From the NCBI RefSeq assembly GCF_932294415.1, contig NC_065535.1, positions 84,403,862 through 84,467,861 of the forward strand: a stretch of DNA of 64,000 nucleotides, given 5' to 3'. Position 1 is the stretch's first letter; the number at the start of each line of letters is the position of its first letter. Below the pieces are notes generated by a model. The model made no database searches and had not been told where the DNA came from. It saw only the letters and a program-made list of their open reading frames with translations. Of the stretch, positions 16,161-46,368 are shown piece by piece. Origin of the DNA: Quercus robur (lineage: Eukaryota; Streptophyta; Magnoliopsida; Fagales; Fagaceae). The translations under genes and the position numbers were made by a program.

Positions 16161-16172
16161 GCTCTGATACCA
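16161..16172 (-). other. Copia primer-binding site
   Basis: On the element strand TGGTATCAGAGC follows the 5' LTR with no gap. This is the usual Copia site complementary to the 3' end of initiator tRNA-Met. Confidence 0.85.
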
Positions 16173-16438
16173 TAAAACAATAAAGTAATATGATATAAAA
16201 CAATAAAGTAATAGAATGCTTTTGGCCGAATGAATTTCCTGTGTTGCTATTGTCAATATATATAGTACATTAGATATACATGACTTGAGTAGTTCAGATA
16301 AGTACAAGTATTGACTAGATCAGATATATTTGACTTGAATTGAATATCTATCCCTATTATCTCTCATTGTGGTGTAGCTTGTTATCTTGATAAGGCTGAC
16401 TTGAATGTTGATCATTATCTTCACCTTTTGTTCCAATA
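16173..16438 (-). repeat. Copia 5' LTR
   Basis: This 266-bp copy is identical to the 3' LTR. On the element strand it runs from TATTGGAACAAAAGG to TTTATTGTTTTA, with a TATA-like stretch near 16257-16265 that could be the promoter. Confidence 0.95.
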
Positions 16439-16703
16439 AGCATGCCAATAATATGGTTAATATTTCATGATTTTGGCATGATCATAGTGGTATTAATACA
16501 AAGAAACTAAATCAATTGAGACTAAAATTATTAAAAAAAGCAAATTTCAAATTGATAGCTTTACAAAGAAATGTTTAATGAGTACCACCATTAGGATATT
16601 GGAGGAAATTAATAACTTTTCATAAATGACCTCATTACCTTGATAATCTGGAACTCAATGGTTTATAGAATTCTTCGAAAAACACATCAATGAACTTATT
16701 ATC

Positions 16704-24882: not shown

Positions 24883-25662
24883 AGTAGGGATAAAGGCCCA
24901 AGATCATATATTGGGCCTTGGGCTTTGTCCGAGGATATTGATAGGTCCGCGCGAGGATGAACAAACAACTATTAGGAGTTCTCAATTAAAGTCTCATAAG
25001 TAGGGGACGAGTAGAGGATGATTCGAGGAGGAACTCCTTCTCGGATATGATAAATGCAGCTTAGATATGTATTCCAACAATTAAAGTGACCCTCCAAGAA
25101 GCTCTCATAATAGGAATGTGCCTTACGAACATACTAGAAAGAAGGAAACCCAAAAATATCTTAGGGAAAGCTGCTACCATCGCATTAAATGCACTGCAGC
25201 TACTTTTTTGGCCGCATTTATGTGGAGAAGACCTCTGAACAATGCTGCCTTGACCACCACAACTCACAGAAAGCCAGAAAGAGTGTCTGATGGGACGGGT
25301 ATTCAAGTAAGGGCTCAGATGATCAACAAGTGTAAGACCAAGATGACCCAAAGGAAGCTATATAATGTGAGAGACCCTCCATGAGAGAGGGGGCAAAAAA
25401 ATAGAGAAAAACATTGTAGAAATCTAAATTATCTTTGTATCCATTTGTGATTAATTTATACAAAGGGGACCTCCTCGGACTGAAAGTATATTAAAATAAA
25501 AATATCTTATTTGTGTTTAACTGTCATTCAAATCAAAACTAACCGTTGTTCAGTTCATTAGGGCCTAGTTCTTCAACCCACTCTCTACAAATTTATTGTA
25601 TTTTGCTCATTGGGCCAACATCCCATACGTTTTGGGCTTGGACTGTAAATCGAGACCCTACA
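24883..25662 (+). repeat. 5' LTR of element A
   Basis: It ends GACCCTACA. A TATA-like CTATATAAT at 25358-25366 is the likely LTR promoter. Confidence 0.88.
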
Positions 25663-25664
25663 AT

Positions 25665-25682
25665 TGGTGCCGTCTGTGGGGA
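25665..25682 (+). other. Primer-binding site of element A
   Basis: TGGTGCCGTCTGTGGGGA follows the 5' LTR after two bases. Element C has nearly the same site, TGGCGCCGTCTGTGGGAA. I do not assign the tRNA. Confidence 0.6.
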
Positions 25683-25715
25683 GAGCTTATGTGATAGTGA
25701 AAACAATGGTCAACT

Positions 25716-26700
25716 ATGGTAGGTTCAGGTCCACACCAGGCAGAATCCATAGCATCTCAACGTGAAAATCCTTTCGCCAACTTTGAGCGTAGGAGAGATC
25801 AAGAGGGCAGTGTGCACACTACGCATACCAGCAAAAGTCACTCTCGAGTTGGGAGTCACGTCTCTCAAGAGCAACATAATAAAGCCATGCAAAAGGAAAT
25901 CGATCATCTGAAGAAGAAATTACGCCATGCACAACGAAAACGAACTCCCACCCCATTTGATTCCTCTTCCAACGATGAGAAGGATAGCGATTATAGACGT
26001 ATATCAAGGACTCCTCCTAGTGAATTCTTCTCATATGAAGAGGAGCACCACCGTGAACGTAGATGTAAGAGCCCAACTCATAGAGGGCTGGGAAATGATG
26101 TGATGAGCAAAATTTTGAACTAGATTTTCAAGTCGCCCTTCACACAGGATTGAAAGAGCAACTCTTTCTCGGCGTTTCCATCAACCAACATTCACCATCT
26201 ACAATAGGCGAACGGACTCGGTGGAGTATGTGAGTCATTTCAGTCAGAGAATGGCTTTATATTCTAAGGACAAAGCCTTGATATGCAAGGTGTTCCCATC
26301 CAGTTTGGGACTCGTGGCGATGAGATGGTTCGACAGCCTGAAGACAAATTCTATAGATTCCTTCAAGGAGCTCACTCAGGCATTTTTCTCTCGTTTTATC
26401 ACATGTACCAGGGTCCCTCGGCTCTTAGACTCCCTACTGTCTTTGTCCATGCGAGAAGGGGAGACCCTGAAAACATACTCGGACAGGTACTGGGAGATAT
26501 ACAATGAGATAGATGGTAACTTTGATGACGTTGCTATTAGTACTTTCAAAAGCGGCCTCCCAACTAAGCATGGTTTAAGGAAGTCCCTAACAGGAAAACC
26601 TCTCACCAGCCTGCGCCAACTCATGGACCGGATTGACAAGTATAAAAGGGTGGAAGAAGACCAGCAACTAGGTAAAGGAAAGACTAAGGTTATCCCTTAG
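25716..26700 (+). pseudogene. Degraded gag of element A
   Basis: The N-terminal part has a charged region with a likely coiled coil (near KEIDHLKKKLRHAQRKR). The capsid-like Retrotrans_gag part follows, with words such as AMRWFDSLKTNSIDSFKEL and LLSLSMREGETLKTYSDRY. It corresponds to the gag of element C. It is broken. Confidence 0.8.
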
Positions 26701-27031
26701 GAGAAGAGGGATTTCAGGTCAGACCAATTCAATAACAACCGACCTCGGAGAGATTTTGCTGAATAATCAGGATCTACCAACACCCAGACCGTTGATGCAG
26801 TATTTCGAGAACCGGTAGCATCGGGTTCTAGAGAAAATTAAGAACGAGTCATTCTTCAAATGGCCGAACAAGATGGCTGGAAATCCCATGAGACGCAACC
26901 AGAGCCTTTATTGCCAATATCATCAGGACTAGGGGCACACTACAGAAGACTGCAGGAATTTGTGGGACCATCTAGACCAGTTGGTCCGAGAAGGGAAGTT
27001 GAAGTAGCTGCTGCGCCTTTCCAGTGGCTAA

Positions 27032-30000
27032 GTGGGGCAGATAGGTTCGGATCCCCGGAGAGATGCCTCTTCAAGACCTCCTCTGGGAATAATCAATGTC
27101 ATCTTCGCTGCCCCTGGTAGGACCAGTTCTTGTCCTTCCAGAGTGATATATGTGGCTCGGCTATCCACCGAAGACAGAAATTCAATGCCAAAAAGAGTCA
27201 GAATAGAGGTCCCACTGGTTCTGGGCTTCTCGGTCGACGATAAGATCAGAACTATCCAACCCCATGACAATGCTTTAGTGGTCACACTCAAAATAGGGGG
27301 GTATGATGTGAAGAGAGTGTTGGTAGACTAGGGAAGTGCTGTTGAGATAATGTACTCCGACCTTTATAAGAGGCTAAATTTGAAACCCGAGGACCTAACG
27401 GCATACGATTCCCCTCTAGTAAGTTTTGAAGGGAAGACTGTTACTCTAAGAGGTCAGATTAGACTGCCCATACAGATCGGTTCGGACGTGGTAGAAGTGG
27501 ACTTTATTGTGGTGGTCGCTTATTCACTGTACACGGTTATTGTGGCTAGACCTTGGCTTCATGCCTTAGAAGTTGTCTCTTCTACCCTGCACCAGAAGGT
27601 GAAGTACCCGTCTGATGGCCAGGTTAAAGAGATTGTGGGAAATCAGTCCATGGCTAGGCAGTGTATGGTGGCTGCCATCTTACATAGGCCTAATGCTGAG
27701 TCCTCGGCCTTTGCTGAGAAGGACTTATATCAATCAAAAACTCTGGTATTGCCCAATAATGGATCAACCGAGGAAGCAAAGTGCGAAGATTTAGAAAAGG
27801 TTATTGTTGGCGATGATCTGGAGAAGTTCTTCCAGGTCGGCTTCGAGCTACCTCCCCAAGAGAAAGAAGAACTAATTGAGTTCCTTAGAAAAAATGTGGA
27901 AGTATTCGTGTGGAATGCTTATGAAGCTTCGGGGGTGGACCCAAACTTCATTTGCCACCATTTGAATGTCAATCCATTTATTACCCCCAAAAAACAACCT
28001 CCTCGGCGCTCATCTAGAGATCATTCCGATGCTGTTAAAGATGAGGTGACAAAATTTAAGCAGGCAGGGGCTATCAATGAAGTTTTCTACCCTGAATGGC
28101 TGGCCAATACTGTGGTAGTGAAGAAAAAGAACGAGAAATGGCAAGTATGTGTGGATTTCATGGATTTAAACAAGGCTTGCCTAAAAGATCCCTTCCCTAT
28201 GCCTCGAATAGACCAGCTGATGGATGCCACTGTTGGCCATCCTCGGATGAGTTTCTTAGATGTCTTTCAAGGATACCATCAAATACTACTAGCCCTGGAT
28301 GATCAGGAGAAGACAGCCTTTGTCACTCCCACTGGAAACTACCATTACAGAGTAATGCCATTTGGCTTAAAAAATGCGGGATCTACCTATCAAAGAATGA
28401 TGACTAACATGTTTAAGCCGCAGTTGGACAAGAGTATTGAGGTCTATATAGACGATATGGTGGTGAAGAGCAAAATGGTGTCTGAGCATGTGGGAGACCT
28501 TGGAAACATTTTTGAAATTCTGAGGAAACACAAGCTACGCCTTAACGCTTCCAAGTGCTCTTTTGGTGTGGGATCAGGCAAGTTTCTAGGCTATATGGTG
28601 ACTCACCGGGGGATCGAGGTTAATCCCGACCAGATTAAGGCAATAAACAATCTACAACCACCTCGGAATCCAAAGGAAGTTCAGAAACTAACCGGAATGA
28701 CTACTGCCTTGAACCGATTTATCTCTCAGTTTGCGAATAAATGCAAACCCTTCTTCCTATTGATAAATAAATGGAAGGGATTTGAGTGGACTGAGAAATG
28801 CGCTTTAGCTTTCCAACAACTTAAGGAGTATCTCTTTCATCCACCTATCATGTCCAGCTCTGAAGTTGATGAAATTCTATTTGTTTACATTGCTGTGGCC
28901 CCTCATGTGGTGAGTTTAGTGTTGATATGAGTTGACAGTGGCATACAACGGCCAGTTTACTACGTGAGCAAGTCACTACACGAGGCCGAGGTTCGTTACC
29001 TACCATTGGAGAAGGGCATCCTAGTAGTAGTGCATGGTACGCGAAAGCTTCCCCATTACTTTTAAGCACATACAGTTGTCGTCCTAACTCAGCTTCCACT
29101 CAAGGCCATACTTAGAAGTGTTGATTACACGGGGAGGATTGCTAAATAGGGCATAGTTCTGGGGGCTTTTGATATTAAATACATGCTTCATACTTCTGTC
29201 AAGGGCCAGGTCCTTGCAGACTTGGTGGCCGAGTTCGCTGAACCCCCATCAGAAGAAATAGCAGCGACACAGAACATGGATGGAAAATCGGTTGGCACAA
29301 TTTCCCTACAAGAACCTTTATTCTGGAAGGTATACGTTGATGGTACTGCAAATCAAAGGGGTTCTGGAGTGGGACTAGTTTTGGTCTCATCTGAAAAACT
29401 CATCATCGAGAAATCATTAAGATTGAGCTTTTCGGCCACAAATAATGAGGCTGAATATAAGGCTTTGCTGGAGGGAATGTCCATGGTTCAAAGAATGGGA
29501 GGAAAGACAGTAAAAATGTTCTTGGACTCGAGGCTAGTCGTTGGCCAGGTAAAGGGCGAACTAGAAGCAAGAGATGAGAGAATGCAAGGGTATTTAAGCC
29601 AGGTTAGGCATTTGCAATCAGGATTGAATCCTTCAGCCTATTGCATGTCCCTAGGAGTGGAAACACACACGCCGATTCCCTAGCCACGCTTGCAACCTCC
29701 TCGACGCAAAGCTTACCTCGGGTTATCCTTATAGAAGACTTGTGCAAACCCACAGAGGTAAGGGGAGAAGTGGTTTATGTTCACCAAGTCAGAGTAGGGC
29801 CTAGTTGGATGGATCCTATAGTACTATACCTGAGAGAGGACATCTTGCCGAAAGAAAAATTAGAAGCTGATAAGATAGGAGAAAGGTGCCTCGTTTCTAG
29901 TTGTCCGAAGACCAAAAATTGTACAAACGCTCTTTTTCTAGGCCATATCTACTCTGCATTCACCCTGAAGCATCAGAGCTACTCCTTGAGGAGCTGCATG

Positions 30001-31043
30001 AAGGGATTTATGGAAGCCACAAAGGAGGCAAGTCTTTGTCTCACAGAGCCATCACTTAGGGCTACTGGTGGCCAAATATGCAGAAAGAAGCACAAGAGTA
30101 TGTGAAGAAGTGTAATCAATGCCAGAGATTTGCACCAAACATACACCAGCTAGGAGGAGTTCTTAACCCCCTATCCAGCCCCTGGCCATTTGCTCAATTG
30201 GGCTTGGATATAGTTGGTCTTTTCCCTAAAGCAGCGGGGAACAAGAGGTATCTACTAGTCGGCATTGACTATTTCACTAAATGGGTTGAAACTGAACCTT
30301 TAGCAAACATCAGAGATGTAGACGCTAAGAAGTTTGTCTAGAAAAACATTGTTACCCGGTTCAGGGTCCCTCATTCCCTAATCTCGGACAATGGTCTTTA
30401 GTTTGATAGTAAGTCCTTCAGGAGATACTGCTGTGAATTGGGAATTACGAACAAATATTCTACCTTAGCCTATCCTTAGGGTAATGGACAAGCCGAGGCT
30501 GTTAACAAGGTCATAGTGAATGGACTCAAGAAGAGGTTGGATGATGCGAATGGAAGATGGGTGGAAGAACTGCCCCATGTCCTGTGGACGCATTAAACCA
30601 CAGCTCGTAGATCAACAGGGGAGACCCCCTTTTCGATGACTTATGGAGTTGAGACTGTTATTCCTTTAGAAACGGGTTTTCCAACGCTAAAGACCAGCTC
30701 ATTCAGTCTGAGTAGTAACAATGAGTTGTTAGAAAGGAGCTTAAATCTCATTGAATAAAGAATAGAAAGTGCAATGGTCTAATTGGCATACTACCAACAC
30801 AAACTCAAGCAAGGTTATGATGCTAAGGTAAAGCTGAGGCCACTAGTGCCTGGTGACTTGGTATTGAGGAAAGTTCTGGGCACTGCAAAAAACCCAGCAT
30901 GGGGAAAGTTAGGACCCAATTGGGAAGGACCATATCGCATCACCTTTGTGGCTGGTATATGGGCATATTTCCTAGAAGACTTAGATGAGCATGTAATACC
31001 ATACCCTTGGAATGTAAACAACCTGAAAATGTATTATTATTAA
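27032..31043 (+). pseudogene. Degraded pol of element A
   Basis: Domains in order: protease region (about 27200-27600); reverse transcriptase (about 27950-28560) with FLDVFQGYHQILL and YIDDMVVKS; classical RNase H (about 28800-29150); a second RNase H (about 29310-29690) with VYVDGTANQRGSGVG and NNEAEYKALLEGM; integrase with its zinc site (about 30000-30110) and core (GLDIVGLFP, IDYFTKWVE); and a C-terminal GKLGPNWEGPYRI block. The paired RNase H domains mark the Tat branch. It is a fossil with several breaks. Confidence 0.88.
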
Positions 31044-31120
31044 TGAAAATTTCCTTAATCAATAAGTTCTTTTGTTGTGTAAAGGCATTGTGCTTCCTGT
31101 TACTCAATCTATTCAAATAT

Positions 31121-31636
31121 TAAACAGAACCTAAGCCTTGTATGGCTCTTCGGACCACAAGTGTAGGGGAAATTAATATCTTATGGCATCTTTATAAGTG
31201 TTAAACAGATTCCAAATTATGTCAGGTTTCTTGGACCACATACTTAGGTAAAATTAACACTCAATGACATCTATTCAAGTATTAAACAGAACCTAAGTTT
31301 TGTATGGCTCCTCGAACCACAAGTTTAGGGGAAATTAATATCTTCGAGCATTTATTCAAGTATTAAACAGAACCTAAGTCCTGCATGGTTCCCCGGACCA
31401 CAAGCTTAGGAGAAATTAATTACTTTTGACATCTGTTCAGGTATTAAATAGAACCTAAGTCTTGCATGCCTCCTCGGACCACAAGTTGAGGGGAAATTAA
31501 TACTCAATGGTATCTTTATAAGTGTTAAACAGATCCTAAGTTATGTATGGTCTCTCGGATCACATACTTTGGTGAAATTAACACTCAAGGGCATCTTTAT
31601 AAATATTAAACAGAACTTAAGTTACAAGGCATATTA
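31121..31636 (+). repeat. 81-bp tandem array in element A (about 6.4 units)
   Basis: Units start TAAACAGA or TAAATAGA at 31121, 31202, 31283, 31364, 31445, 31526 and 31607, exactly 81 bp apart with no net indel; the last is partial. Two subtypes are seen. Units 1, 3, 4 and 5 contain CACAAG and GGGGAAATTAAT or close variants. Units 2 and 6 contain CACATACTT and AAATTAACACTCA. The array lies between the end of pol and the 3' end of the antisense gene and is not open in any useful frame. Confidence 0.9.
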
Positions 31637-31953
31637 CTTATTTCCTTTAGATTCAACATTCATTGTATAAGGGTTGATTCATAATACAAGTGGATAATAA
31701 CTCTCTCTTGCTAATACTTAGTTAGATTTCTTGAAATATCAGTAATGAATTACTGTTAGAACACATTGGAAATGGAGCAACAATAGTTCAAACTTGTTTG
31801 CAATAATAATCAGTATGAAAAGCATAAAAAGTAAAGATCCAGGGAATAGAAGGAAAAGTTCATTAATTAATTCAAAAGAAGATATATTACAAGCAGTGAC
31901 CTAAGCCACAGGAAAAGAAAATAAAAGAAGGTACATAAAAGAAAATCCTACAA

Positions 31954-34504
31954 CTACTTCTTTGTTGGCTGAGGATCCTCTTTAGTATCAACGATCTTGG
32001 ACTTAGCATCCCCAACCTTGGGCTTCTCAGCTACCTTAGCCTGGGAGATTACATCCTTGATTGTAAAGGTGTTCTCAGACTGAGTATCTTCGATTGGAGG
32101 CAGACCCTCCTTGCCCCTACCTACCCCTATGGAAGCCCCAGCATCAAGAGTAAGATCTTGAATACTAGAAACCAACTCAGGAGGGGGCAGGGGCAGGGTA
32201 GTGGAGGGGAGGTCAGCTGGAACTTCTCTAATGTGTTCAGGGAAAAACACGCTCTCAGCCCTCCTCAGCTCGGAGTCCGCAGAGACCCCTGCACTGTTAA
32301 GAGCCTCCATCCAAGTCATAGTGCAGTAGTCCCTGCACACTTCGGCTACTTCCTCAGCCAGCCTCTGCTCCGTCTCAAGCACCCCCCGCTTATAGGCTGC
32401 TTCCTCCGTGGCTTTAGCAGCTTCCCTGACCGTCTGGGCTTCAACTTTAGCTTTTTGCAGTTCAGCCTTCAGACTTAGAACCATCGCTTTCTCGGTGGCC
32501 AGGTTCAGCTCAGTTGTATAAAGTAGCTTGCGCTGGTCCTTAGCCTGGGCCTTAGCAGTTTTAAGCCCCGCCAAGGCGCTTAGACGCTCATGCTCTGAGG
32601 TTTTCGGCTTCTCGGCCAATTGTGTCTTCTCCTCCTTCACGACCTTGAGTGTTTTCTCAACCTCGTGCCGAGAGTGAGTGGGACTCAGCTTCAAATTTAT
32701 TATGGGCATTTCGAACCCACTCCTCAGCAACGTAGATTTGTTAAGTGACCTGCATAAAAGTATCAAAGGGGTTACATATAAAAAAATATATATGAATGAA
32801 AAAGGGAATGAATTAAGGTACTGCTAGAAGCTTACTTACCATAACAAGGTCTCTCTTTAGAGACATAAATAGGTTAGGTTGCCTTGTCCGCCTGAGGGCT
32901 TCCATGTCCCTAGAAAGGAGGAGAGGCTGTTCCACATCTTGGGCTAAATGGGTAGCGTGCCCTCTACTGGATTCCCTTATGGTAGAATCATAAGGGATGG
33001 GGGCTCTGTCCTTCTCTATCACAGGAGCCCATGTGCGTTGCTATCGGTGTACCTCAGTGTCATCCCTACTGTCTACAGATTTAGCCCTCTTATCTCTAGG
33101 GTCTTTGGTTTTTTGCTGTTTGGTGCCTCTCTGAGGGAGCACCTCCCCTTTTTCCAGCTCCTGTATTGGTCTCTTTTTCTTTAGATCAGGATTAATACGC
33201 AGTCCGAGATCAGCATGAGGAGGAGGAGGAGGAAGAGGAAGATTGGCAGAAACCTGGGCCTTGGGGATTTTTGTCAGAGTTGCCCCTTTGTTCCTATTGG
33301 CGATCAAACCCCTCAGGCTTGGCCTTTTCTTCTGGTCCATATTCTCTCCTTCTTCGGAGCTTGTATCAACTAAAGCAACTGCCTGTTCTGGCTGATGAGC
33401 CATGGAAAGCCTGTCGGACTCAGTCTCAGAATCCGAAAGCTTCATGGGCTTCTCTGGGGTTCTCTTTTCCTTTGCAAAATGAAATCTGTCAATCTCCTCT
33501 TCAAGTGATAAACGTGAGGAGGAGGCTATCTCTTCTGCTACTGCTACTGCCGCTTCGTATGGAACCTGCCGAAGTGGTATTGCTAATGGTGGAGGGTTCT
33601 GTTGAATGGGCAATACCACAGGTGGGAGATCCCGCCTCGCTAGGAACCCCGGTTTGGAGACGTCTATTCGAGCGAGCCTGGGGTTACCTGCTCTTAGTGC
33701 TTGGCCTGTGTCCTGGTATAAGTGCAACAAGGGCTCGTAACTTAAAATGAGGTGAGCAGCCCGCAACTGATTATCTTCGCTCACGAATATTTCTGACCTC
33801 AGCAAAAAGTTGAGCCCGGGAACGTTGACCAGACTAAGCTTCAGAGAGACATGATCTTTATCTGCAAAAACATTCGAGAAGGGAATTATGGTTAAATCAG
33901 TAATAAACACTATCCGAGAAGACAAATTACTAAAAGTAAGTAAAGGGAGAGCTCAGAAAACTAAGGTCCCGGCCGAGGGACCTGATCCTAGGGTACCTCA
34001 CCTGGTGTTCCTACCCTAACTGGGTAGTGAAGACCGTCGTGTCATTCCTCAGAGACGACCAGATAATTGTCCTTCAAGCTTTTGTTGGACTTAGGAAGGT
34101 AAGATATCAATCTTACCTCGTCGAACTGTGATTTAAGGTAATATCCCCCGGTAAGGGAATGACACTCGTACAAATGAGTGACGTCGTGCCATGTAAGACC
34201 GAGGTTCATCTGGTCGTTTAGAGCGTCTACACACCCTAGGACTCTAAACATATTGGCGGCGCACTGATGGGGGCATAACTTATGGTTGAGCAGATAATCT
34301 CTAGTTATCCTACCTATGGGAAGCGTTATTCCCCCCTTTATAAAGGCGATCATTGGAATGACAACTTCGCCCACCTCTCTATCTGTGAGTACATGGTTTG
34401 GGGAACAGTATTGTAGGCCTACTCCTTGGGGGATATGGTACTTGGCCCTAAAGCTCTCCGTACTAGCCGGAGAGTCTACTAAATACTTGAATCTACCCAT
34501 TTAA
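31954..34504 (-). pseudogene. Antisense accessory gene of element A, degraded
   Basis: On the strand opposite to gag-pol lie three blocks. The N-terminal block begins at 34500 with MGRFKYLVDSP and includes MIAFIKGGITLPIGRITRDYL and LPKSNKSLKDNYLVVS. This resembles the plant transposase-like Transposase_28 domain. The middle block (about 33925-33041) is Ser/Pro/Lys-rich with a LKLSLVNVPGLNFLLRSE stretch. The C-terminal block (32766-31954) is a long charged helix, probably coiled coil, ending QPTKK. Order and style match the intact antisense gene of element C, although sequence similarity is low. It is a fossil; I do not attempt to restore it. Confidence 0.65.
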
Positions 34505-34764
34505 ATGAACGGAGATGATGCAGGAAGAAGTTTCTAAAAAAGAAAGAAAGCCGAGGAGGAAGGCCGAGAATAAAAAGGAGAAAAAAAAAAGGACTTATGA
34601 GAATGAGTATGTTTATCTTTGAAGTTTTTAAAAGATTTTCAAGGAAATCTTGAGGGAAAGGTTTGGGAAGCTTTGTAACTTAGGAAGTTTTGTGAGTTGG
34701 AGCGCTTGAAATCACTAGAGAGCTTGAAGATTGGTAAAGTAAAAGGAAAACAAGTTCCCTCGAG

Positions 34765-34774
34765 GCTTTATATA
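34765..34774 (-). promoter_or_regulatory. TATA box of the antisense gene in element A
   Basis: On the minus strand TATATAAAG lies about 265 bp before the first ATG of the antisense gene. The sequence around it, with GAGCGGGATAACTCCCACTC just upstream and AAGCCT just downstream, recurs in element D at the same relative place. Confidence 0.55.
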
Positions 34775-35052
34775 GGAAATGGAAATGAGTGGGAGTTATC
34801 CCGCTCAAATTTCCAAGAAAAGGCTCAACCGTTGGATCTGAGCTTTGCCATTGGATCTGGGGAACAACACGCCGCCTGGAGCAATTAATGATGCTTTGTG
34901 GGCTGCGAAACGTCAGAGATAATCATGAGGCACATAAAACGGTACTCCTACATGTACGAACAACAGAGTCAAATGGTGTTAACTCTTAAAAAATCAAAAC
35001 CCCACTTTTCTCCTCGAATTGGAGGGAAAAAACCAGAGTTTTGAGGGGCTAT

Positions 35053-35823
35053 TGTAGGAATAAAGGCTCAAGATCATATATTGTGCCTTGAGCTTTATCC
35101 GAGGATATTGATAGGTCCGAGGATGAACAAACAGCTATTAGGAGTTCCCAGTTAAAGTCTCATAAGTAGGGGACGAGTGGAGGATGATTCAAGGAGGAAC
35201 TACTCCTCGGATATGATAAATACAGCTCAAATATGTATTCCGACAATTAAAGTGACCCTCCAAGAAGTTCCCATAATAGGAACGTGCCTTACGAACATAC
35301 TAGAAAGAAGGAAACCCAAAAATATCTAAGGAAAAGTTGCTACCATCGCATTAAATGCACTGCAGCTACTTTTCTGGCCTAATTTATGTGGAGAAGACCT
35401 CCGAACAGTGCTGCCTTGGCCACCACAACTCACAGAAAGCCAGAGAAGGTGTCTGATGGGATGGGTACTCAAGTAGGGGCTTAGATGATCAACAAATGTA
35501 AGATCAAGATGACCTAAATAGAGTTATATAATGTGAGAGACCCTCCATGAGAGAGGGGGCAGAAAAATAGAGAAAAACACTGTAGCAATCTAAATTATCT
35601 TTGTATCCATCTGTGATTAATTTATACAAAGGGGACCTCCTCAGACTAAAAGTATATTAAAATAAAAATCTCTTATTTGTGTTTGACTGTCATTCAAATC
35701 AAAACTAGCCGTTGTTCAGTTCATTAGGGCCTAGTTCTTCGACTCACTCTCTACAAATTTATTGTATTGAGCTCATTGGGCCAACATCCCATACGTTTTG
35801 GGCTTGGACAGTAAATCGAGACC

Positions 35824-35828
<5 letters not shown>
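35053..35828 (+). repeat. 3' LTR of element A
   Basis: It begins TGTAGGAATAAAGG directly after the purine tract (GAGGGG near 35043-35048) and ends GACCCTACA at the edge of a (TA)n tract. Confidence 0.9.
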
Positions 35829-35955: not shown

Positions 35956-36642
35956 TGATGATTCCTTGGTTATCAGTGGGTTGATAAGACTTGAACGTTG
36001 ATCTTCGGGCTATCTCCTGTAATACCAAAGACACAGAATCAGAGGGGACCGGTGTCGACCGGCCAAAAATCCTCCGATGATCAAGTTAGTTATTTGGAAC
36101 TCTCTGTAACGAAGAAGTGTTCTCTTAAAAGTAAGAAAGTGTCTGAATACCTTTTTCCTTCATCGAAGAAGCCTTATATAGTGTGTGGAACGGTTATCTA
36201 TTTGGTAACCGTTCCCAGTGTCGAGGAGTCCGGAGAATTGGGAGTAACCGCTGTGGAAGTTACTTAGGTCGGACGGGCCGATGAACTCGTCCATCCATAA
36301 TGAAGATGGACGAGACCTTCATGAGTAGCTCGTCCACGTTTAGTCCATCCATAATGAGGATGGACGAGACCTCCAGGATGATCTCGTCCACTTTTAGTCC
36401 ATCCATAATGAGGATGGACGAGACCTCCAGGATGATCTCGTCCACTTTTAGTGAAAGACGGACGAGATCATCTTGGAAGGCTTGTCGTCCATAAATGACG
36501 AGTAGATCTTGAGGTATTAAGCCCGTCCATATACGGACGAGGGTCGCTGGTACGGTTGCAATTCTCTCCGCCTATTGTTGCTTCTTTCGTTGGACGAGAC
36601 ATATGGATGAGTTATGGGTTTGGGGATTCTGTGACACCATCA
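35956..36642 (-). repeat. 3' LTR of element C
   Basis: 687 bp, from TGATGATTCC to CACCATCA on the plus strand, nearly identical to 45303-45989. It contains a 54-bp minisatellite at 36291-36452. Confidence 0.95.
36291..36452. repeat. 54-bp minisatellite, three copies, in the 3' LTR of C
   Basis: Each unit begins CCATCCATAATGA and holds GGATGGACGAGACC and CTCGTCCAC. Units 2 and 3 are identical; unit 1 differs at several bases. Each unit can fold on itself because it contains both CTCGTCC and GGACGAG. Confidence 0.9.
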
Positions 36643-36716
36643 GTTGCCCCCTCGTCCATGTGAGTCGTCCAAAAGGTTGAACGTTCTTGGGCACAATTGG
36701 TTAACAATTATTGTAC

Positions 36717-36781
36717 CACGTGTCCTTTTCTTATTAGAGACTGATTCTGTCGATTTATTTTTCCAAGATTGATGCCACGTG
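36717..36781 (+). promoter_or_regulatory. Two G-boxes upstream of the antisense gene of C
   Basis: CACGTG occurs at 36717-36722 (in ACCACGTGTCC) and 36776-36781 (in GCCACGTGTTGC), 107-112 and 48-53 bp before the TATA box. Both contexts fit the ABRE/G-box class bound by plant bZIP and bHLH factors. They lie outside the LTR. Confidence 0.5.
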
Positions 36782-36828
36782 TTGCTTCTGTATTGGTTGG
36801 GTCGTTTCGATTACCCAGGTCAGCATCC

Positions 36829-36836
36829 TATAAATA
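36829..36836 (+). promoter_or_regulatory. TATA box of the antisense gene of C
   Basis: TATAAATA within CCTATAAATAGTGG lies 161 bp before the ATG at 36997 and outside the LTR. It is close to the plant TATA consensus and points in the direction of the antisense gene. Confidence 0.65.
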
Positions 36837-36996
36837 GTGGAATGCCTCCCTTGACCCTCCTCATTCCAGAAATTTTCTTCCTTGACATCCATCGTCTAGA
36901 GCCTCGTCTAAGAGTTCTCTGCGTCTAGAGTCTTCTTCCGTCTAGAGCCAGGTACTCTTCTTTTTCTCGTCTTTAGGTTTAAGTTTCTTCTTAGGG

Positions 36997-39170
36997 ATGT
37001 CTGTTGCTTCCTCGTCCACAGATAGCCTTGATAAGGTTATAGACGAGTATTGTGATGATACTAGTGATAGGTCTAGCTCTAGCAGTGCTAGTGATGAGAG
37101 TGGAGGAAGCACGGACGAGAACTACTCTTCTGGGGCCCCTGGGCTCCCTATTGAAGTCGTCCAAGAACAGCTTAGGAGAGCTTCTGGCTCTCAAGCTGGT
37201 TCTCCGTCCAATCCTACGGACGAGGTAGAAACCGTCTTCAGTTGCGCTGTAGGCGTCCATTCTAAGACGGACGAACAGAGGTTAGGTAACCTTAGGTCCT
37301 GGTATCAAATCCCAGACGAGTTTAACCCTAGGCTACCCGTCCGTGGAGAATGGTGTTGTGAGCCCCGTTTTGGAATAGGCGTCTATGAATCTTACTTCCT
37401 AGGTGGCCTTAGGTTTCCTTTAAATGCCTTTGCTAGGGAGTTACTAGTCAAATTAGGTCTAGGTGTTTGTCAATTCAATCCCAACGCATGGAGATTAATT
37501 ATCTCCATGCAAATTTTGTGGAGGGAAGTTTTTGGTAGGGACCGTCCTCTTACAGTGGACGAGTTCCTTTATTGTTATAGACCTTCTGCCATAAGTCAGT
37601 CTGAAGGTTTTTACCAATTTACTGCTAGAGGGAATGATTGTAGGTTGATCAAGTCCCTAGCTTCGTCTGATAGGAAGTGGAAGACGGAGTTTATTTTTAT
37701 TTCAGGCTTCTGGGCAGGGAACCCTGTGGACGTTGGCAGGGATCCCTTTCCTCCTTACACTGGGGACCTGGGGAACCTTCGTCCAGAAGGTACGTCCCTT
37801 CCCCTCGTCTACTTTTATTCTTCTATTTAGTACATTTACAATTTCTAACCTTTGTTTGTTCATTGTTTTGTAGCTGCCAAACGTCCGTCCTTGAGCAAAT
37901 TTCACCGTGACCGCGTCCACAGGGCCCGTCTACACGCAGACAGGAGCTTCCATTCCCTTGTCACGCTTAGGCGTCTGGCCAAGTGGGGTTTAGGTCCCGA
38001 GCCTTCAGACGAAGCTATAGCCCACGAAGTCACTGTGCGAAAAAGTAAGTTTTTAACTTAACCTTCCTTTCTTTTTCTTTTTTATGTATACATTCCTCAT
38101 TTGTTCATCTCGTCCTAGGAATGTCAACAATGAAAGAGAACCGAGGAAAAGAGATCGCAGGAGAGGGGAAACGTCCTGAGGGTCAAGCCCAGGATCGTCC
38201 AACGGCTGGGGACAAAAGAAAGTTCTTGCCTAAGAACATTGACCTGGATGGGCTCCCCAGTCGAAGAGATAAAAGGGTTAAACAAAGCTCGTCCAAGGTG
38301 GTCAAGTCCAAACCACCCTCGTCTCAGCCTGCCGTCCAAATAGTTGATGTGGACTCGTCCACTCCAGTTGAGTCCACCCCGTCCAAGACTCCTCCCAGAA
38401 CTCCTGTGGCCAGATCTACCATGCCTGGCTCGTCCCAGCCTTCTATGAATATTATTGCAAATGAAGACCTGGCTTGGGAACGGTTCCAGATGGCCGTCAA
38501 GGACGAGGATATAAACATGTGCTATAACATGGGCTTGAAGGAATTTGAGCATTCAGGCGTCCATGACCTTTTCAAGGTATGCCAGTATCCCTCGTCCTTG
38601 TTTAGTTATTAAATTTTCCTCATTTAATCATTCTATGTTGTTCTCTGTTCACAGGCCATGTCGAAGTTTATAGCAGCGTCTAGACAGGCAACGGAGCTGG
38701 ACAAGACGAGAGTCTTGTTGGAGACGAGGATTCAGGAGGTGAACGCTGACTGTAAAAAATGGGCTGGGTTTGCTGAAAAAGCTAAGGACGAGGTCAAAGA
38801 GCATAACAAGCTGATTGAGGAGCTAAGGACGGATGCATTGGAGAAGGAGACGCGCATTGATCACTTACAACAGGTGAACAATGAGTTGAATGCTCGTCTT
38901 TCCAAAGCAAGAGAGGACGCTGTGGCTGAGTTCAAGTCGTCCAAAGAGTATACAGACACTTTGGATCGCAATTATGCAGCTGGTTTTGAAGATTTCAGAA
39001 TGGACGCTGTTGAAAACTTTCCTGAAGTTGACTTCAGCACAATCAAGCTTAACCTTGCTGCTGCCACAAGCTCTCTCCTCCAGACTGGCTCTGATGATGT
39101 CAACGTGGAAGACGACGCCAGCACTCAGCCTCCTCAGGACGAGCCTACAGTGAATGCTCCCCCTTCTTAG
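36997..39170 (+). CDS. Spliced accessory protein antisense to gag-pol in element C (645 aa)
   Basis: Four exons fit exactly: 36997-37789, 37874-38044, 38119-38576 and 38655-39170. All introns are short (74-84 bp) with GT-AG ends, and the frame is continuous through every junction. The N-terminus is Ser/Asp-rich. Residues about 90-260 hold a folded domain with YQIPDEFN, FLGGLRFPLNAFARELLVKL, PLTVDEFLYCY and FIFISGFWAG, resembling the plant transposase-like Transposase_28 family. The middle is basic and Ser/Pro-rich with several Lys/Arg clusters, a possible nuclear signal (RRDKRVKQ). The last exon is a long charged helix, likely coiled coil, with an acidic tail. Antisense extra ORFs are known in Tat elements; the function is unknown. 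The frame looks whole. Confidence 0.8.
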
Positions 39171-40038
39171 GACGGGATTTTAAACTTTGTAGCTTTGCTT
39201 TTTCTTTTTTTGTAACTTTTGTGTTTGGTCCTTTGTTTTTGGACCTTCTTTATGTAACAAGAATACATTATACTCGTCCATGGTTTTAGGACGGGTTTTT
39301 TAAGTATACTATTTCTACTTTTCAAACTAATCAAGGGTTTTTGGACGTAGGATGTCCACCCTTTGAATGAAGTTTTATTTTCTTTGCATGGATAAATGAT
39401 TTCATTTTCTTTGAATGGACGAGTGATTTCATTTTCTTTGCATGGACGGATGCTGCTAAGCTATTTTATTCTTAGCTCGTCCATGTCGAGAATACATATT
39501 TTTCTTGTAGTCTAACTCGTCTTAGCAGGTAGTATTTTTAATTAGCTTGATTCGTCTTAAGACTTGCAAACTAATTTTTCATACCGTCTACTTATTTTGC
39601 CAACTTTTTGTCTCGTCCAGAATTTGGATTGTTTCAGTTGGCTTTACCTCGTCCATGAGTTGGACGAGTATGGATGTGGTTTCTTTTATTCAAGAAAATT
39701 TAGACGTTACATCTCTGCGTCCAGAGATTTTGTTCGTCTTGGATCTTTCAACCCTCTTGAGGATTGAATTGGACGATAATATCATGGAGAATTCACACAA
39801 CATTTTGTACATAACATAAATATTGTTTACAGACAAGGCATATGCACACTGATGCCTTTTTATTTAATAAATACATACTTCATGACTTCGTCCATAACCA
39901 CAACACAACTATAAAAAGTAAATCATAGTTTCAAACTTCACACACAAACAATACCAAACATAGTAGTATCAAACAGCATCACTCATAATAGTACGCTAGT
40001 AGACAGATAAGACCCAAGTCTCGTCCATAGGTTCACTC
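39171..40038. other. Region between antisense gene and pol in element C
   Basis: T-rich non-coding sequence with the 27-bp array and many CTCGTCC/GGACGAG words. The two genes converge here, so it probably holds both 3' ends. Confidence 0.6.
39373..39453. repeat. 27-bp tandem repeat, three copies, in element C
   Basis: Units TTTCATTTTCTTTGCATGG with variants start at 39373, 39400 and 39427. The array lies between the antisense gene and the end of pol, the same place as the 81-bp array in element A. Confidence 0.8.
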
Positions 40039-43000
40039 TTACTGGTAGTACCTCCTCAGGTGCTCCACATTCCAAGGATGTTCCAATTTTCTCCCGTCCA
40101 GGGCCTCCAGGTAGTAGGATCCTTGCCTTTTACAGTTGATTATTCTATAGGGTCCTTCCCAGTTTGGGCCCAACTTCCCATGTGCTGGGTTCTTGGTTGA
40201 CAAAGAGACCTTTCTCAGGACGAGATCTCCTATATGGAAACGCCTAGGCTTCACCATCGCATCATACTGCTTAGCCATGAGGTTCTTATACTTTGCTGCC
40301 CTGTATTCTGCGTTTGCCCTTACCTCGTCTATTAGATCGAGGTTCAGACGAAGCTGGTCCTCATTATCCTTGTCTTGATACGTCATCACCCTGTGATTAG
40401 CCATATGCACTTCTGCAGGTATGACTGCATCGCTTCCATAGGCCAACTTGAAAGGAGTCTCCCCTGTAGGGGTCCTCACAGTGGTCCTGTATGCCCATAA
40501 AACTCCTGGTAATTCATCTGGCCATATTCCCTTTGCCCCCTCAAGCCGAGTTTTGATGATTTTCAACAAGGATCGGTTTGCTACTTCAGCTTGGCCGTTG
40601 GCTTGGGGGTGTGCAGGTGAGGAGTAATGGTTCTGAATTCCAAAGTGTAAGCAAAAGTCCTTGAAGAGTGCATTGTCAAATTGCCGTCCGTTGTCAGACA
40701 CCAATACCCTCGGCACTCCAAATCTGCAAACAATGTTCTTCCACACGAAGTTCTTAACATTCTGTTGTGTGATATTTGCCAACGGTTCTGCCTCCACCCA
40801 TTTGGTGAAGTAATCGATGCCCACAACTAAAAACTTCATCTGCCTTACTCCCAAAGGGAAGGGACCCAAGATATCCAATCCCCATTGTGCGAAGGGCCAC
40901 GGTGCTACCATTGGGGTGAGGTATTCCGACGGTTGCCTGGGGACATTGCTAAATCGCTGGCATTGGTCGCAGACTTTAACATATGCTTTTGCATCAGCTT
41001 GCATGTTCGGCCAGTAATATCCTGCACGGACGATCTTGTGGACAAGTGATCTGGCTCCTGAGTGATTGCCACAGGCCCCTTCGTGAACTTCTCTCAGCAC
41101 GTAGTTTGCTTCGTCCGGAGCTAGGCACCTAAGGTAAGGTTGAGAGAAACCTCTCTTGTATAGCACTTCATTCATAAGGACGTATCTAGCTGATCTCACC
41201 CTCACCTTTCTGGCTTCGTCCTTTTCTTCTGGTAGTCGTCCATCTTTCAAATATGATATAATGGGAGTCATCCAATCTTCTTTGTTATCTACCTGCTGTA
41301 CTTCCTGGGCATCTATACTTGGCATATACTGAACTTCATCTGACTTCTCTAATGATTCATCTGCTGAGGCCTCTTTTGCTATAGTATCAGCTTCCACGTT
41401 CTCCTCCCTGGGGATTTGAACGAAGTCAGCTTTTTCAAACCTTTTCACAAGGCGCATCACCCTACCAAGGTATTTCTTCATTCGTCCTTCCTTCGCTTCA
41501 TACATCCCATTCACTTGCCCCATGATCAGTTGGGAATCTCCCATGACACGTATGGACTTGGCTTCCACGGACTTCGCCAATTCTAGCCCTTTGAGGAGGG
41601 CTTCATATTCGACTTCATTGTTTGTCGTTTGGTATTGTAGACGGACTTTATGTTTCAGCTTGTCTCCCTCTGGGGACTGCAGGACCACACCAATTCCTCC
41701 TGCATGCCGTGTAGACGAACCATTCACGTGGACGATCCATCTCTTGCTGTCCTCTGCCTCGTTATGACTTGGGGTAAACTCTGCAATAAAATCTGCTAGG
41801 GCTTGAGCTTTTATGGCATGCCTTGGTTGATATCTGATATCAAACTCACTTAGCTCCACAGCCCACTGGATTAATCGTCCTGCAGCATCCAGTCTATTCA
41901 TTGCCTTTTTGAGAGGATGATCTGTCATAACATTAATGACATGTGCTTGGAAATAATGCCTCAGCTTCCTTGAAGCTGTGATTAGTGCGAAGGCCAACTT
42001 CTCCATTTGTGGATATCGTCCTTCCGCTCCTTTCAATGCCGTGCTTGTATAATACACAGGTCTTTGTACTTTATCTTCCTCTCTTATCAATGCTGAGCTC
42101 ACTGCATGTGGGGTTACCGCTAGGTACAAATATAGTTCCTCTCCTTCCACTGATGGACTCAGCAGCGGTGCCATGGTAAGGTATACCTTCAAATCTTCGA
42201 AAGCTCTCTGACAGTCGTCGGTCCATTCAAATGCTTTTTTGAGAACCTTAAAAAATGGCAAACATTTGTCAGTAGCCTTAGAGACAAACCTGTTAAGCAC
42301 AGCGACTCGTCCAGTGAGGGATTGAATTTCCTTGGTATTTTGCGGTGGCTTCATGTCCAGTATTGCTTGAATTTTATCTGGATTCGCTTCAATTCCCCTA
42401 TGGGATACCATAAAGCCAAGGAATTTCCCTGACGATACTCCAAAGGCACATTTGCTAGGATTCAGCTTCATGTGATACTGCCTCAACGTCTCAAATGTCT
42501 CCTGCAGGTCGTCTAGATGTCTTCCTTCGTCCTGGCTTTTCACCAGCATGTCATCTACATAGACTTCCACATTCCGCCCAATCTGCGGACGGAACATGTG
42601 GTTGACCAACCTCTGGTATGTCGCCCCTGCATTCTTTAAACCAAACGGCATCACTTTATAGCAGAATAAGCCTTGACTGGTGACAAAAGATGTCTTCTCT
42701 TGATCAGCCTCGTCCATTCTTATCTGATTATATCCTGAAAAGGCATCCATGAAGCTAAGCAATTTGTGGCCTGCAGTTGAGTCTACTAACTGGTCAATGC
42801 GCGGTAACGGATAGCTGTCCTTTGGGCAAGCCTTGTTCAGATCAGTGAAGTCCACGCACATTCTCCACTTGCCATTCGCTTTTTTGACCATTACTACATT
42901 GGCCAACCAATCCGGGTAGTACACCTCCCGAATGAACTTTGCTACCATCAGCTTTTGAACCTCGTCCTTGATTGCATTATCTCTCTCAGGGGCAAACACC

Positions 43001-45243
43001 CTCTTCTTTTGCCGCACAGGCTTGGAGGAAGGACATACATTCAAACGGTGGGTAATGACACCAGGGTCTATACCCGGCATATCCTCGTGACTCCACGCAA
43101 ACACGTCGATGTTTTTCTTCAAAAACTGGACGAGGTCTGTCTTAATCTTCTCTTCTAAATCTGCTCCCACCCTGGTACACCTCTCAGGGTTATCTTCATC
43201 CAAGGAAATATCTTCCAATGCTTCAGTAGGTTCTGCTACAACCCTCTTTTCTTCAATGTTCATTGCTTGAACTTGTTCATCCATGGCCAGCATGGCCAAG
43301 TAACACTCTCTTGCTGCCAGTTGGTCACCTTGTACCCGTCCTACCCCGTGTTCTGTTGGAAACTTGACTGATAAGTGGTAAGTAGAGGTAACAGCTTTCC
43401 AACTATTCAAAGTTGGCCTCCCAATGATGGCATTGTAAGAGGATGGACAATCTACCACAAGGAAGTTCACATCCTTGGTAATCTGTTGTGGATATGCCCC
43501 CACTACCACGGATAGGGAAATGGTACCCACTGGTTGCACCTTCATCCCCCCAAAGCCTACTAGGGGGGAGTTCACTGGACGGAGCTGGTCTCGTCCTAAT
43601 CTCATCTGCTGAAAGGCTGGATAATACAAAATGTCTGCTGAGCTTCCATTGTCCACAAGCACTCTTCTGGTTGTGTAGTTTGCAATTAGTAAAGAGATGA
43701 CGAGGGCATCATCATGAGGGTGATGAATTCTGTCAGCGTCCTCGTCCGTAAAAGTGATTGCCCGCTCGTCCGTGGATCTTGCTCTTGGTGATCGTCCAGA
43801 AAGTTGGACGCTCTGTACTACCTTCAAGTATGCTTTCTTGGACTTGGACGACTGGCCAGTTGTACTTCCTCCAATGATGACTCTTATCTCCCCGAGTGGT
43901 GGTCGCGATGAATCTTCCATCTTTCCCTTCTGTTTCTCGTCCCTCTGGTCTCGTCCAAGGAAACCCCTTAACTTCCCTTGCCTTATGAGATTTTCAATTT
44001 GCTGCTTCAAGTCAAAACACTCGTCCGTGTCATGACCATGATCCCTATGGAAGCGACAATACTTGTTCCTGTTGCGCTTATTGGGATCACCCTTCATCTT
44101 CTCTGGCCACTTCAAGGAAGGATCATCCTTGATTTGCATAAGGACTTGCTCAAGTGGGGCGTTTAAAGGGGTATACTGCTGGTTCCGTACTGGAGGGCCT
44201 GGCTTCTTACTTTCTCGATCTCTCCTTTCCTCCATCCGTCCCTTCTTTGGACGAGTACCTTGCTCATGCTGACGACTGGGATTTGCGTCCATTCTCTCGG
44301 ACCTCTTCCTCTTCTTAGCAATGATTGCATCTTCTGCATTCATAAAATTCTGAGCCGAATGGACGAGTTCGGCCATGGACTGGGGCTCTTTTTCATAGAG
44401 CTTGTGTATAAACAGATCTGAATTCACCCCATTGTGGAAGGCTGCCAGTAGAAGCTTATCATCTGCTTCGTCCACACTGAGAGCTTCTCTGTTAAAACGG
44501 GTGATAAATGACCGAAGGCTTTCGTTCTCTCCCTGCTCTATTGTCAACAAACTGGACGAGGAACGCTTGTGCCTTTGTCTTCCAATGAAATTGTTAACAA
44601 ATAACTTGCTCAACTCTTCAAAAGAACTCACCGAATTCGGAGGTAGTTTGCTAAACCAAACTCGCGCCGAACCCTTAAGGGTGGTTGGGAAGGCCCTACA
44701 CATTATTTCATCAGGCACTCCTTGAAGATGCATGGTGGTTTTGAAAGTGGCTATATGATCAAACGGGTCACGTGTTCCATCATATGAATCCAGAGAAGGC
44801 AACTTGAACTTTGATGGTAGTGGGTGACCGTTGATGGAAGCCGTAAAGGGAGAATCTGTCCTGTGAACCAAGTCTTCTATCGGATTTGCCTTTTTCATAT
44901 TCTCCTTCATTTCCTCCATAACTCTCTTCATTTGGTCCATTTCTTCCTTCAAGTATGGTACCGTTCGTGAAGTGGTGCCTCTGAACTGACTTCCAACTTC
45001 GGTGTTCTCTCTTCCACCGTGACTATCTGTTTGTCTTCCTTCACGTTCTTCTTGTGTTTGCCTCCTCATATTAATCTCCATTCGCAATTCTTGGTTTTGG
45101 CGAGTCAACTCCGCCATAGCGTCTGCCATAGATTGTGCTTGTTGGGCAGATGACTGCATGACCGGCGCAGACTGGCGATCGCGATGCGGGTTGCTGCTAC
45201 CCTGATGGCCTGGGCTAGTAGCCCGTGATCTAGTCCGAACCAT
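40039..45243 (-). CDS. Gag-pol polyprotein of Tat-type element C (1,734 aa)
   Basis: One open frame. I start it at the ATG giving MVRTRSRATSPG, just inside the element; the frame stays open further upstream into the LTR. Domains: gag with a Retrotrans_gag capsid region (about 44860-44440); a zinc-knuckle-like CRFHRDHGHDTDEC (about 44060-44010); a retropepsin-like protease with VLVDNGSSADILY (near 43650); reverse transcriptase with FMDAFSGYNQIRM and VYVDDMLVKS (near 42550); RNase H; a second RNase H beginning WIVHVNGSSTRHAGGIGVVL (about 41740-41450); integrase zinc site ending VCDQCQRF (near 40950); integrase core with DNGRQFD (near 40690); and a C-terminal GKLGPNWEGPYRI block. Gag and pol in one frame and the doubled RNase H are Tat traits. 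It looks whole. Confidence 0.93.
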   Translation of the reverse strand: MVRTRSRATSPGHQGSSNPHRDRQSAPVMQSSAQQAQSMADAMAELTRQNQELRMEINMRRQTQEEREGRQTDSHGGRENTEVGSQFRGTTSRTVPYLKEEMDQMKRVMEEMKENMKKANPIEDLVHRTDSPFTASINGHPLPSKFKLPSLDSYDGTRDPFDHIATFKTTMHLQGVPDEIMCRAFPTTLKGSARVWFSKLPPNSVSSFEELSKLFVNNFIGRQRHKRSSSSLLTIEQGENESLRSFITRFNREALSVDEADDKLLLAAFHNGVNSDLFIHKLYEKEPQSMAELVHSAQNFMNAEDAIIAKKRKRSERMDANPSRQHEQGTRPKKGRMEERRDRESKKPGPPVRNQQYTPLNAPLEQVLMQIKDDPSLKWPEKMKGDPNKRNRNKYCRFHRDHGHDTDECFDLKQQIENLIRQGKLRGFLGRDQRDEKQKGKMEDSSRPPLGEIRVIIGGSTTGQSSKSKKAYLKVVQSVQLSGRSPRARSTDERAITFTDEDADRIHHPHDDALVISLLIANYTTRRVLVDNGSSADILYYPAFQQMRLGRDQLRPVNSPLVGFGGMKVQPVGTISLSVVVGAYPQQITKDVNFLVVDCPSSYNAIIGRPTLNSWKAVTSTYHLSVKFPTEHGVGRVQGDQLAARECYLAMLAMDEQVQAMNIEEKRVVAEPTEALEDISLDEDNPERCTRVGADLEEKIKTDLVQFLKKNIDVFAWSHEDMPGIDPGVITHRLNVCPSSKPVRQKKRVFAPERDNAIKDEVQKLMVAKFIREVYYPDWLANVVMVKKANGKWRMCVDFTDLNKACPKDSYPLPRIDQLVDSTAGHKLLSFMDAFSGYNQIRMDEADQEKTSFVTSQGLFCYKVMPFGLKNAGATYQRLVNHMFRPQIGRNVEVYVDDMLVKSQDEGRHLDDLQETFETLRQYHMKLNPSKCAFGVSSGKFLGFMVSHRGIEANPDKIQAILDMKPPQNTKEIQSLTGRVAVLNRFVSKATDKCLPFFKVLKKAFEWTDDCQRAFEDLKVYLTMAPLLSPSVEGEELYLYLAVTPHAVSSALIREEDKVQRPVYYTSTALKGAEGRYPQMEKLAFALITASRKLRHYFQAHVINVMTDHPLKKAMNRLDAAGRLIQWAVELSEFDIRYQPRHAIKAQALADFIAEFTPSHNEAEDSKRWIVHVNGSSTRHAGGIGVVLQSPEGDKLKHKVRLQYQTTNNEVEYEALLKGLELAKSVEAKSIRVMGDSQLIMGQVNGMYEAKEGRMKKYLGRVMRLVKRFEKADFVQIPREENVEADTIAKEASADESLEKSDEVQYMPSIDAQEVQQVDNKEDWMTPIISYLKDGRLPEEKDEARKVRVRSARYVLMNEVLYKRGFSQPYLRCLAPDEANYVLREVHEGACGNHSGARSLVHKIVRAGYYWPNMQADAKAYVKVCDQCQRFSNVPRQPSEYLTPMVAPWPFAQWGLDILGPFPLGVRQMKFLVVGIDYFTKWVEAEPLANITQQNVKNFVWKNIVCRFGVPRVLVSDNGRQFDNALFKDFCLHFGIQNHYSSPAHPQANGQAEVANRSLLKIIKTRLEGAKGIWPDELPGVLWAYRTTVRTPTGETPFKLAYGSDAVIPAEVHMANHRVMTYQDKDNEDQLRLNLDLIDEVRANAEYRAAKYKNLMAKQYDAMVKPRRFHIGDLVLRKVSLSTKNPAHGKLGPNWEGPYRIINCKRQGSYYLEALDGRKLEHPWNVEHLRRYYQ

Positions 45244-45283
45244 CAACCCTTTGTCACGAAGAAACAAATTGTGAAACAATCGT

Positions 45284-45301
45284 TCCCACAGACGGCGCCA
45301 A
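45284..45301 (-). other. Primer-binding site of element C
   Basis: On the element strand TGGCGCCGTCTGTGGGAA begins one base after the 5' LTR. It matches the site in element A at 16 of 18 bases. The tRNA is not assigned. Confidence 0.65.
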
Positions 45302-45518
45302 CTGATGATTCCTTGGTTATCAGTGGGTTGATAAGACTTGAACGTTGATCTTCGGGCTATCTCCTGTAATACCAAAGACACAGAATCAGAGGGGACCGGT
45401 GTCGACCGGCCAAAAATCCTCCGATGATCAAGTTAGTTATTTGGAACTCTCTGTAACGAAGAAGTGTTCTCTTAAAAGTAAGAAAGTGTCTGAATACCTT
45501 TTTCCTTCATCGAAGAAG

Positions 45519-45529
45519 CCTTATATAGT
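45519..45529 (-). promoter_or_regulatory. LTR promoter TATA box of element C
   Basis: On the element strand CACTATATAAGGC lies about 465 bp into the 5' LTR, a suitable place for the U3 promoter that drives gag-pol. Confidence 0.6.
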
Positions 45530-45637
45530 GTGTGGAACGGTTATCTATTTGGTAACCGTTCCCAGTGTCGAGGAGTCCGGAGAATTGGGAGTAACCGCTG
45601 TGGAAGTTACTTAGGTCGGACGGGCCGATGAACTCGT

Positions 45638-45799
45638 CCATCCATAATGAAGATGGACGAGACCTTCATGAGTAGCTCGTCCACGTTTAGTCCATCCATA
45701 ATGAGGATGGACGAGACCTCCAGGATGATCTCGTCCACTTTTAGTCCATCCATAATGAGGATGGACGAGACCTCCAGGATGATCTCGTCCACTTTTAGT
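45638..45799. repeat. 54-bp minisatellite, three copies, in the 5' LTR of C
   Basis: Same array as in the other LTR, shifted by 9,347 bp. Confidence 0.9.
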
Positions 45800-46368
45800 G
45801 AAAGACGGACGAGATCATCTTGGAAGGCTTGTCGTCCATAAATGACGAGTAGATCTTGAGGTATTAAGCCCGTCCATATACGGACGAGGGTCGCTGGTAC
45901 GGTTGCAATTCTCTCCGCCTATTGTTGCTTCTTTTGTTGGACGAGACATATGGACGAGTTATGGGTTTGGGGATTCTGTGACACCATCAATTATATTTTG
46001 TTAACTCTTTAGAAAATCAAGTAAGAATATTATTGGGTAGAAAATGTAAATTTTCCATATTAATTTTTTTTTAATGAATTCTTAATTTTCGATATTACGA
46101 AGTACTTTTTTTATTTTATGTATTCTTAATTTTCGATATTATGAAGTACATTTTATTTATTTATTTATTTATTTTTACAGTTCATTAATTCTATACTTTT
46201 TGGTTTTTGTACTCAATAACTCACTTAGATAAATATTTATGATGTGATCTCAAATTTAGCTCCAAAATTAAGAAATAAAAATCTTTAAAAATAAATAATT
46301 TAGAATATATAATACAAAATTGGACTTTAATTGTAAAATCTAATTGAATTTTCTCTAAATTTTACCTA

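Follow-up and report, generated by a model that had tools for sequence, protein, structure and literature searches.

A predicted antisense gene of TRP28 type with three introns in a young Retand-type retrotransposon of Quercus robur

A young Retand-type element in oak very likely carries an antisense accessory gene (aORF-3R, TRP28 type), which would have its own promoter, be spliced at three introns and encode a 645-residue, probably nuclear, regulatory protein. That the gene is transcribed and spliced, and that its product enters the nucleus, binds DNA and has a regulatory role, are all predictions from the DNA. The element lies in a 64,000-nucleotide stretch of the Quercus robur genome (the window; NC_065535.1, positions 84,403,862 to 84,467,861 of the forward strand), and the gene consists of 645 codons and a stop codon in 4 exons, on the strand opposite to gag-pol, between the 3' LTR and the end of pol at 40039. 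The gene type is already known, and the novelty appears to be the introns within it. The features are summarized in Table 1.

Table 1. Features of the element and of its predicted antisense gene (positions within the window)
Feature	Position	Strand	Remarks
Whole element, Ty3/gypsy LTR retrotransposon	35956..45989	.	
3' LTR	35956..36642	-	TG..CA, 687 bp; holds 54-bp repeat x3 (36289-36452)
G-box CACGTG	36717..36722	+	no substitution among 8 copies read
G-box CACGTG	36776..36781	+	altered in L008 only (base 36779; 8 copies read)
TATA box TATAAATA	36829..36836	+	no substitution among 8 copies read
Exon 1	36997..37789	+	Ser/acidic N-terminus; Transposase_28-like stretch, residues 130-184
Intron 1	37790..37873	+	GT-AG, 84 nt, phase 1
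Exon 2	37874..38044	+	
Intron 2	38045..38118	+	GT-AG, 74 nt (75 nt in L006, L008), phase 1
Exon 3	38119..38576	+	basic linker, NLS-like stretch KRK...RRDKRVK (spotted by eye)
Intron 3	38577..38654	+	GT-AG, 78 nt, phase 0
Exon 4	38655..39170	+	helical/coiled-coil-like C-terminus and stop codon
gag-pol	40039..45432	-	single open frame, 1797 codons: gag, RT, RNase H, second RNase H, integrase
5' LTR	45303..45989	-	687 bp, TG..CA; 2/687 differences vs 3' LTR
54-bp tandem repeat x3 per LTR	36289-36452, 45636-45799		GGACGA and TCGTCC once each per unit

The insertion of the element is young, because its two LTRs differ at only 2 positions. One of the two differences, base 36608 in the 3' LTR, sets the window's copy apart from its own 5' LTR and from all 7 other copies that were read, and is probably a private change of this copy. 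The five-base repeats flanking the element, ATTAC and ATTAT, match at 4 of 5 bases. Among the Pfam matches in pol is RVT_3, which we take to be an archaeal-type RNase H. The domain order in Pfam (RT, RNase H, second RNase H, integrase) is the pol order described for Ogre and Retand in PMC6317226 (this and the other papers given by PMC number are cited from their accessible parts). The stretch separating pol from the 3' LTR (36643-40038), which holds the antisense ORF, is 3396 bp long and falls inside the range of 2933-6566 bp in PMC11963269. The element was named Retand rather than Ogre because of this structure and of its TRP28 gene, and its assignment as a young Retand-type Ty3/gypsy element (Tat clade) is one by structure and gene content.

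As a control against chance, we made a blind search, guided by simple splice-site rules and allowing at most 3 introns of 60-130 nt, for the longest frame from ATG to stop. A sequence-only reading of this DNA had described two G-boxes, the TATA-like box, four exons with GT-AG junctions and a continuous 645-codon frame, antisense to gag-pol and outside the LTR, and all of its coordinates turned out to be correct. The blind search returned exactly the 645-codon model, while the same search on 1000 dinucleotide shuffles gave a mean of 91 and a maximum of 237 codons, which bears out the earlier view that three frame-keeping introns are unlikely by chance. Under bare GT/AG rules, a frame of 658 codons with different junctions came out best (mean of 191 and maximum of 378 codons over 1000 shuffles), and the exact junctions thus hinge on the site rules used. 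That slightly longer frame is what would speak for a frame that arose by chance under loose splice rules, but the observed 645 or 658 codons stand far above the shuffle maxima of 237 or 378 (n=1000) and the frame is conserved across 8 copies, so we rejected this explanation as hardly credible at all. Coding on the sense strand of the gene region was rejected too, the best opposite-strand frame there being 142 codons.

When the same search was run on 32 other stretch-strands of the window, 645 codons were exceeded twice (811 and 667), because a copia element and a TPR-like ORF hold long open frames. The copia element (11640-16441) has 269-bp LTRs with 99.6% identity and a single open frame of 1443 codons, and the ORF at 6947-8938, open over 663 codons, shows TPR matches and may be a host gene.

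The introns contain 65-70% A+T versus 43-52% in the exons. A single extra ATG, at 36842 and directly 3' of the TATA box, lies in the stretch that separates this box from the CDS. On the 3' side of the gene, the length of a pyrimidine tract (39204) varies among copies (L006 and L008 vs the window).

For the antisense protein, seven Pfam families matched at E up to 1, of which presumably none is related to VANC. The sequence-only reading had proposed a DNA-binding domain plus a coiled coil, with Transposase_28 as the family to look for. PF04195 (Transposase_28), which Pfam describes as a gypsy-type transposon family, was matched at E 3.3e-5, yet its 24.5 bits are below the gathering score of 26.2. 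The C-terminal part is helical, with weak matches to coiled-coil families in Pfam (E 0.12 or worse), and DNA binding is a prediction. A fold comparison of the protein gave no confident match. Since DNA binding is predicted for TRP28 (PMC11963269) and the antisense protein of Grande is reported to be nuclear (PMC7264820), the most likely role of the present protein would be that of a nuclear regulator of its element.

To see how the gene is kept among insertions, we scanned the 785.7-Mb genome and scored 40 of 665 candidate copies, of which 18 have 98-100% identity, 1 has 95% and 21 have 93-94%. In 39 of them query bases 1-2454 are matched and in one 1-2453, with spans of 2454-2497 bp, which means that the introns are present in all 40 scored copies and the gene is full length in each. 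Eight of the 40 were read, namely the window's copy and 7 others, all from the rounded-100% group (the nearest subfamily). Differing left flanks mark these eight as independent insertions. It turned out that all eight have a CDS of 1938 nt (stop included) with no internal stop and with GT-AG at all 3 introns, the conservation of splice sites in related copies that the sequence-only reading had looked for. The only indel within 36997-39170 is 1 nt in intron 2, shared by L006 and L008. Substituted sites number 28 of 1938 in exons and 9 of 236 in introns, the introns being more variable (Fisher P 0.015), and half of the exon substitutions (14 of 28) fall on third codon positions. The replacement test was not significant in these 8 nearest copies (15 nonsynonymous and 13 synonymous changes, 18.9 nonsynonymous expected, P 0.085), so that the dN/dS asked of the family came out below 1 (omega ~0.56) but not significantly. 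About one stop is expected by chance among 28 changes, so that in copies as young as these little can be read from the absence of stops by itself. The conservation of frame and splice sites in 8 of 8 copies supports, without proving, a spliced protein as the product. The idea of a second product, separately transcribed and spliced, is thus backed by promoter motifs, introns and this conservation, while transcription and splicing themselves are predicted.

Two other explanations are touched by these copies. The antisense transcript rather than the protein might be what matters, pairing with the genomic RNA and feeding small-RNA silencing; its sequence would complement that of the stretch from pol to the 3' LTR, and the idea is raised in PMC7264820. 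Such a role needs no long frame, no three intact introns and no restriction of the indel to an intron, as seen in 8 copies, and we regard it as quite unlikely. The coding conservation favours action via the protein, with which an additional antisense-RNA effect is compatible. The gene might also be a host gene captured recently and carried as a passenger, as its introns and private promoter might suggest. This was rejected as very improbable: each of the 40 scored element copies has the gene at full length, Pfam calls the matching family a gypsy-type transposon family, and PMC11963269, in its accessible part, reports nothing similar to TRP28 outside TEs.

For the accessory gene of the element itself, the preferred reading, the course of events would be as follows. 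The host would transcribe it from the G-box/TATA promoter just inside the 3' LTR, independently of the LTR promoter, and the three short introns would be removed from the transcript. Translation would give 645 residues with a Ser/acidic N-terminus, a TRP28 globular region, a basic NLS-like linker and a helical C-terminus, and the protein would act on the expression or silencing of its own element. A retroelement would be able to keep such introns because the gene is antisense: retrotransposition copies RNA of the opposite strand, where the introns appear as CT..AC and would stay unspliced, so that they would outlast the process.

Besides, two older elements were found in the window. The older element at 24884-35828 (+) has LTRs with 92% identity, a broken pol and CCGAGG/CTCGGC as top hexamers. 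It contains a TATATAAA box at 34775 (-), just inside the LTR, and downstream of it an exon alignable to exon 1; its antisense exons are at 34500-34042, 33952-33041 and 32823-31954. The third element runs from 61902 to the window end (64000) on the minus strand; it is partial, has 73% identity to the second element and contains a TRP28-like frame with stops. A G-box (62777) and a TATATAAA box (62959, +) stand just inside its LTR, again followed by an exon alignable to exon 1. Identity in these alignments to exon 1 is low, at 27% of the aligned columns and, by tblastn, 22% with E 0.014. A Pfam search of the exon of the older element did not recognise Transposase_28, so its kinship rests on a weak pairwise alignment. 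Given these weak alignments, the missing Pfam name and the stops in both older elements, a layout of promoter plus antisense exon common to them is suggestive only.

The word TCGTCC/GGACGA occurs 77 times, in both orientations, in the 10-kb element (35956-45989), where 3.9 are expected. The whole window contains 88, leaving 11 for the remaining 54 kb. In the extended form CTCGTCCAT, C is found in 55, A in 50 and T in 40 of the 77. By part, 23 sites lie in the LTRs, 2 in the leader, 15 in the exons and 2 in the introns of the antisense gene, 9 in the intergenic spacer and 26 in gag-pol. In the internal region the word has a z of 30.5, while the top hexamer in 200 shuffles has 7.8; higher scores exist in the window for simple repeats elsewhere (AGAGAG, z 45). 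In 2000 synonymous-codon shuffles, the antisense gene gave a mean of 3.4 and a maximum of 9 (15 observed) and gag-pol a mean of 5.8 and a maximum of 13 (26 observed), so that protein and codon use are insufficient to explain the word, whose occurrences are biased to some reading frames. Flanking sequences at the 54 internal sites resemble one another no more than those at random positions do (median of best matches 16/37, control 15.6/37), which argues that these sites were not spread as longer repeats. In the LTRs, the number of 54-bp units varies among insertions, with one more in L007 (+54) and one fewer in L008 (-54). Among the 8 young copies, word bases were not significantly protected from substitution under any of three definitions (P 0.13, 0.53 and 0.37; for P 0.13, 1/240 vs 80/4405). 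C-to-T singletons showed no CG excess (CG 6/322, CHG 8/325, CHH 23/1432), but counts this low allow no firm statement on methylation.

This pattern seems to call for a selective cause. A DNA-reading protein would be the simplest such cause, and one candidate for it is encoded in the element. One could imagine that the TRP28 protein binds CTCGTCCAT across its own element and fends off silent chromatin in a sequence-specific way, like VANC in VANDAL elements. The enrichment (77 of the window's 88 words inside the element), the excess over synonymous shuffles in both genes, and the LTR words in a tandem repeat of variable number, a form also taken by VANC targets (PMC5735166), are in keeping with this. 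Against it, VANC21 sites are noncoding (PMC5735166), while 41 of the 77 words here are in coding sequence, the word lacks significant protection (P 0.13), the older element's CTCGGC (z 8.0) barely exceeds the control CACCAC of copia (z 7.8), and the Pfam list holds no family known to be related to VANC. We therefore consider such anti-silencing doubtful. The same low expectation applies to its wider form, an LTR retrotransposon with its own anti-silencing system made up of a spliced antisense gene, a TRP28 DNA-binding protein and about 77 recognition words, in which each Retand family may own a word and a matching protein that co-evolve as in VANC/VANDAL.

Compared with known systems, elements of the Retand lineage usually carry an antisense Transposase_28 gene (TRP28, PF04195; PMC11963269), from which the present gene differs in its three short introns, the survey in that paper having counted uninterrupted ORFs. 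In its Table 1, the TRP28 ORFs of some clusters are shorter than 600 nt, for which introns might be one possible reason. Gene23 of maize Grande (Gomez-Orte et al. 2013, via PMC7264820) has the same antisense place between pol and the 3' LTR and, reportedly, a nuclear protein; its own promoter is reported, whereas the one here is predicted, and the two are likened by description only. Ogre is also of the Tat clade and also uses an intron, but on the sense strand, between GAG-PROT and RT and removed from a subset of transcripts (PMC6317226), while the present introns are antisense and outside gag-pol. In VANC/VANDAL of Arabidopsis (PMC5735166), too, a TE bears an additional protein gene and numerous short family-specific words, partly in variable tandem repeats. 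However, VANDAL is a DNA transposon (Mutator-like) and the present element has LTRs, RT and integrase; VANC21 words are noncoding and the present words also fill coding exons, and binding and demethylation here are putative.

The main text of PMC11963269, as far as accessible, has no word beginning with "intron", and the accessible text of PMC7264820 does not mention introns; its conclusion recommends looking for antisense and spliced transcripts. In the partly accessible literature that we searched, introns in a TRP28-type antisense gene were not found reported, though Gomez-Orte 2013 and Steinbauerova et al. (extra ORFs) might mention them; nor was an anti-silencing system in an LTR retrotransposon (including PMC12844716, PMC12859917, PMC9784723 and PMC10398659).

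In conclusion, the antisense TRP28 gene is carried by most recently active Retand elements, and the present copy indicates that an intron-bearing form is possible, which ORF-based surveys would shorten or overlook. The antisense placement would explain how a retroelement can keep introns. Besides, the word CTCGTCCAT is a concrete candidate target for the TRP28 protein, and should the protein prove to bind it, an anti-silencing system like that of VANDAL DNA transposons would exist in LTR retrotransposons as well.
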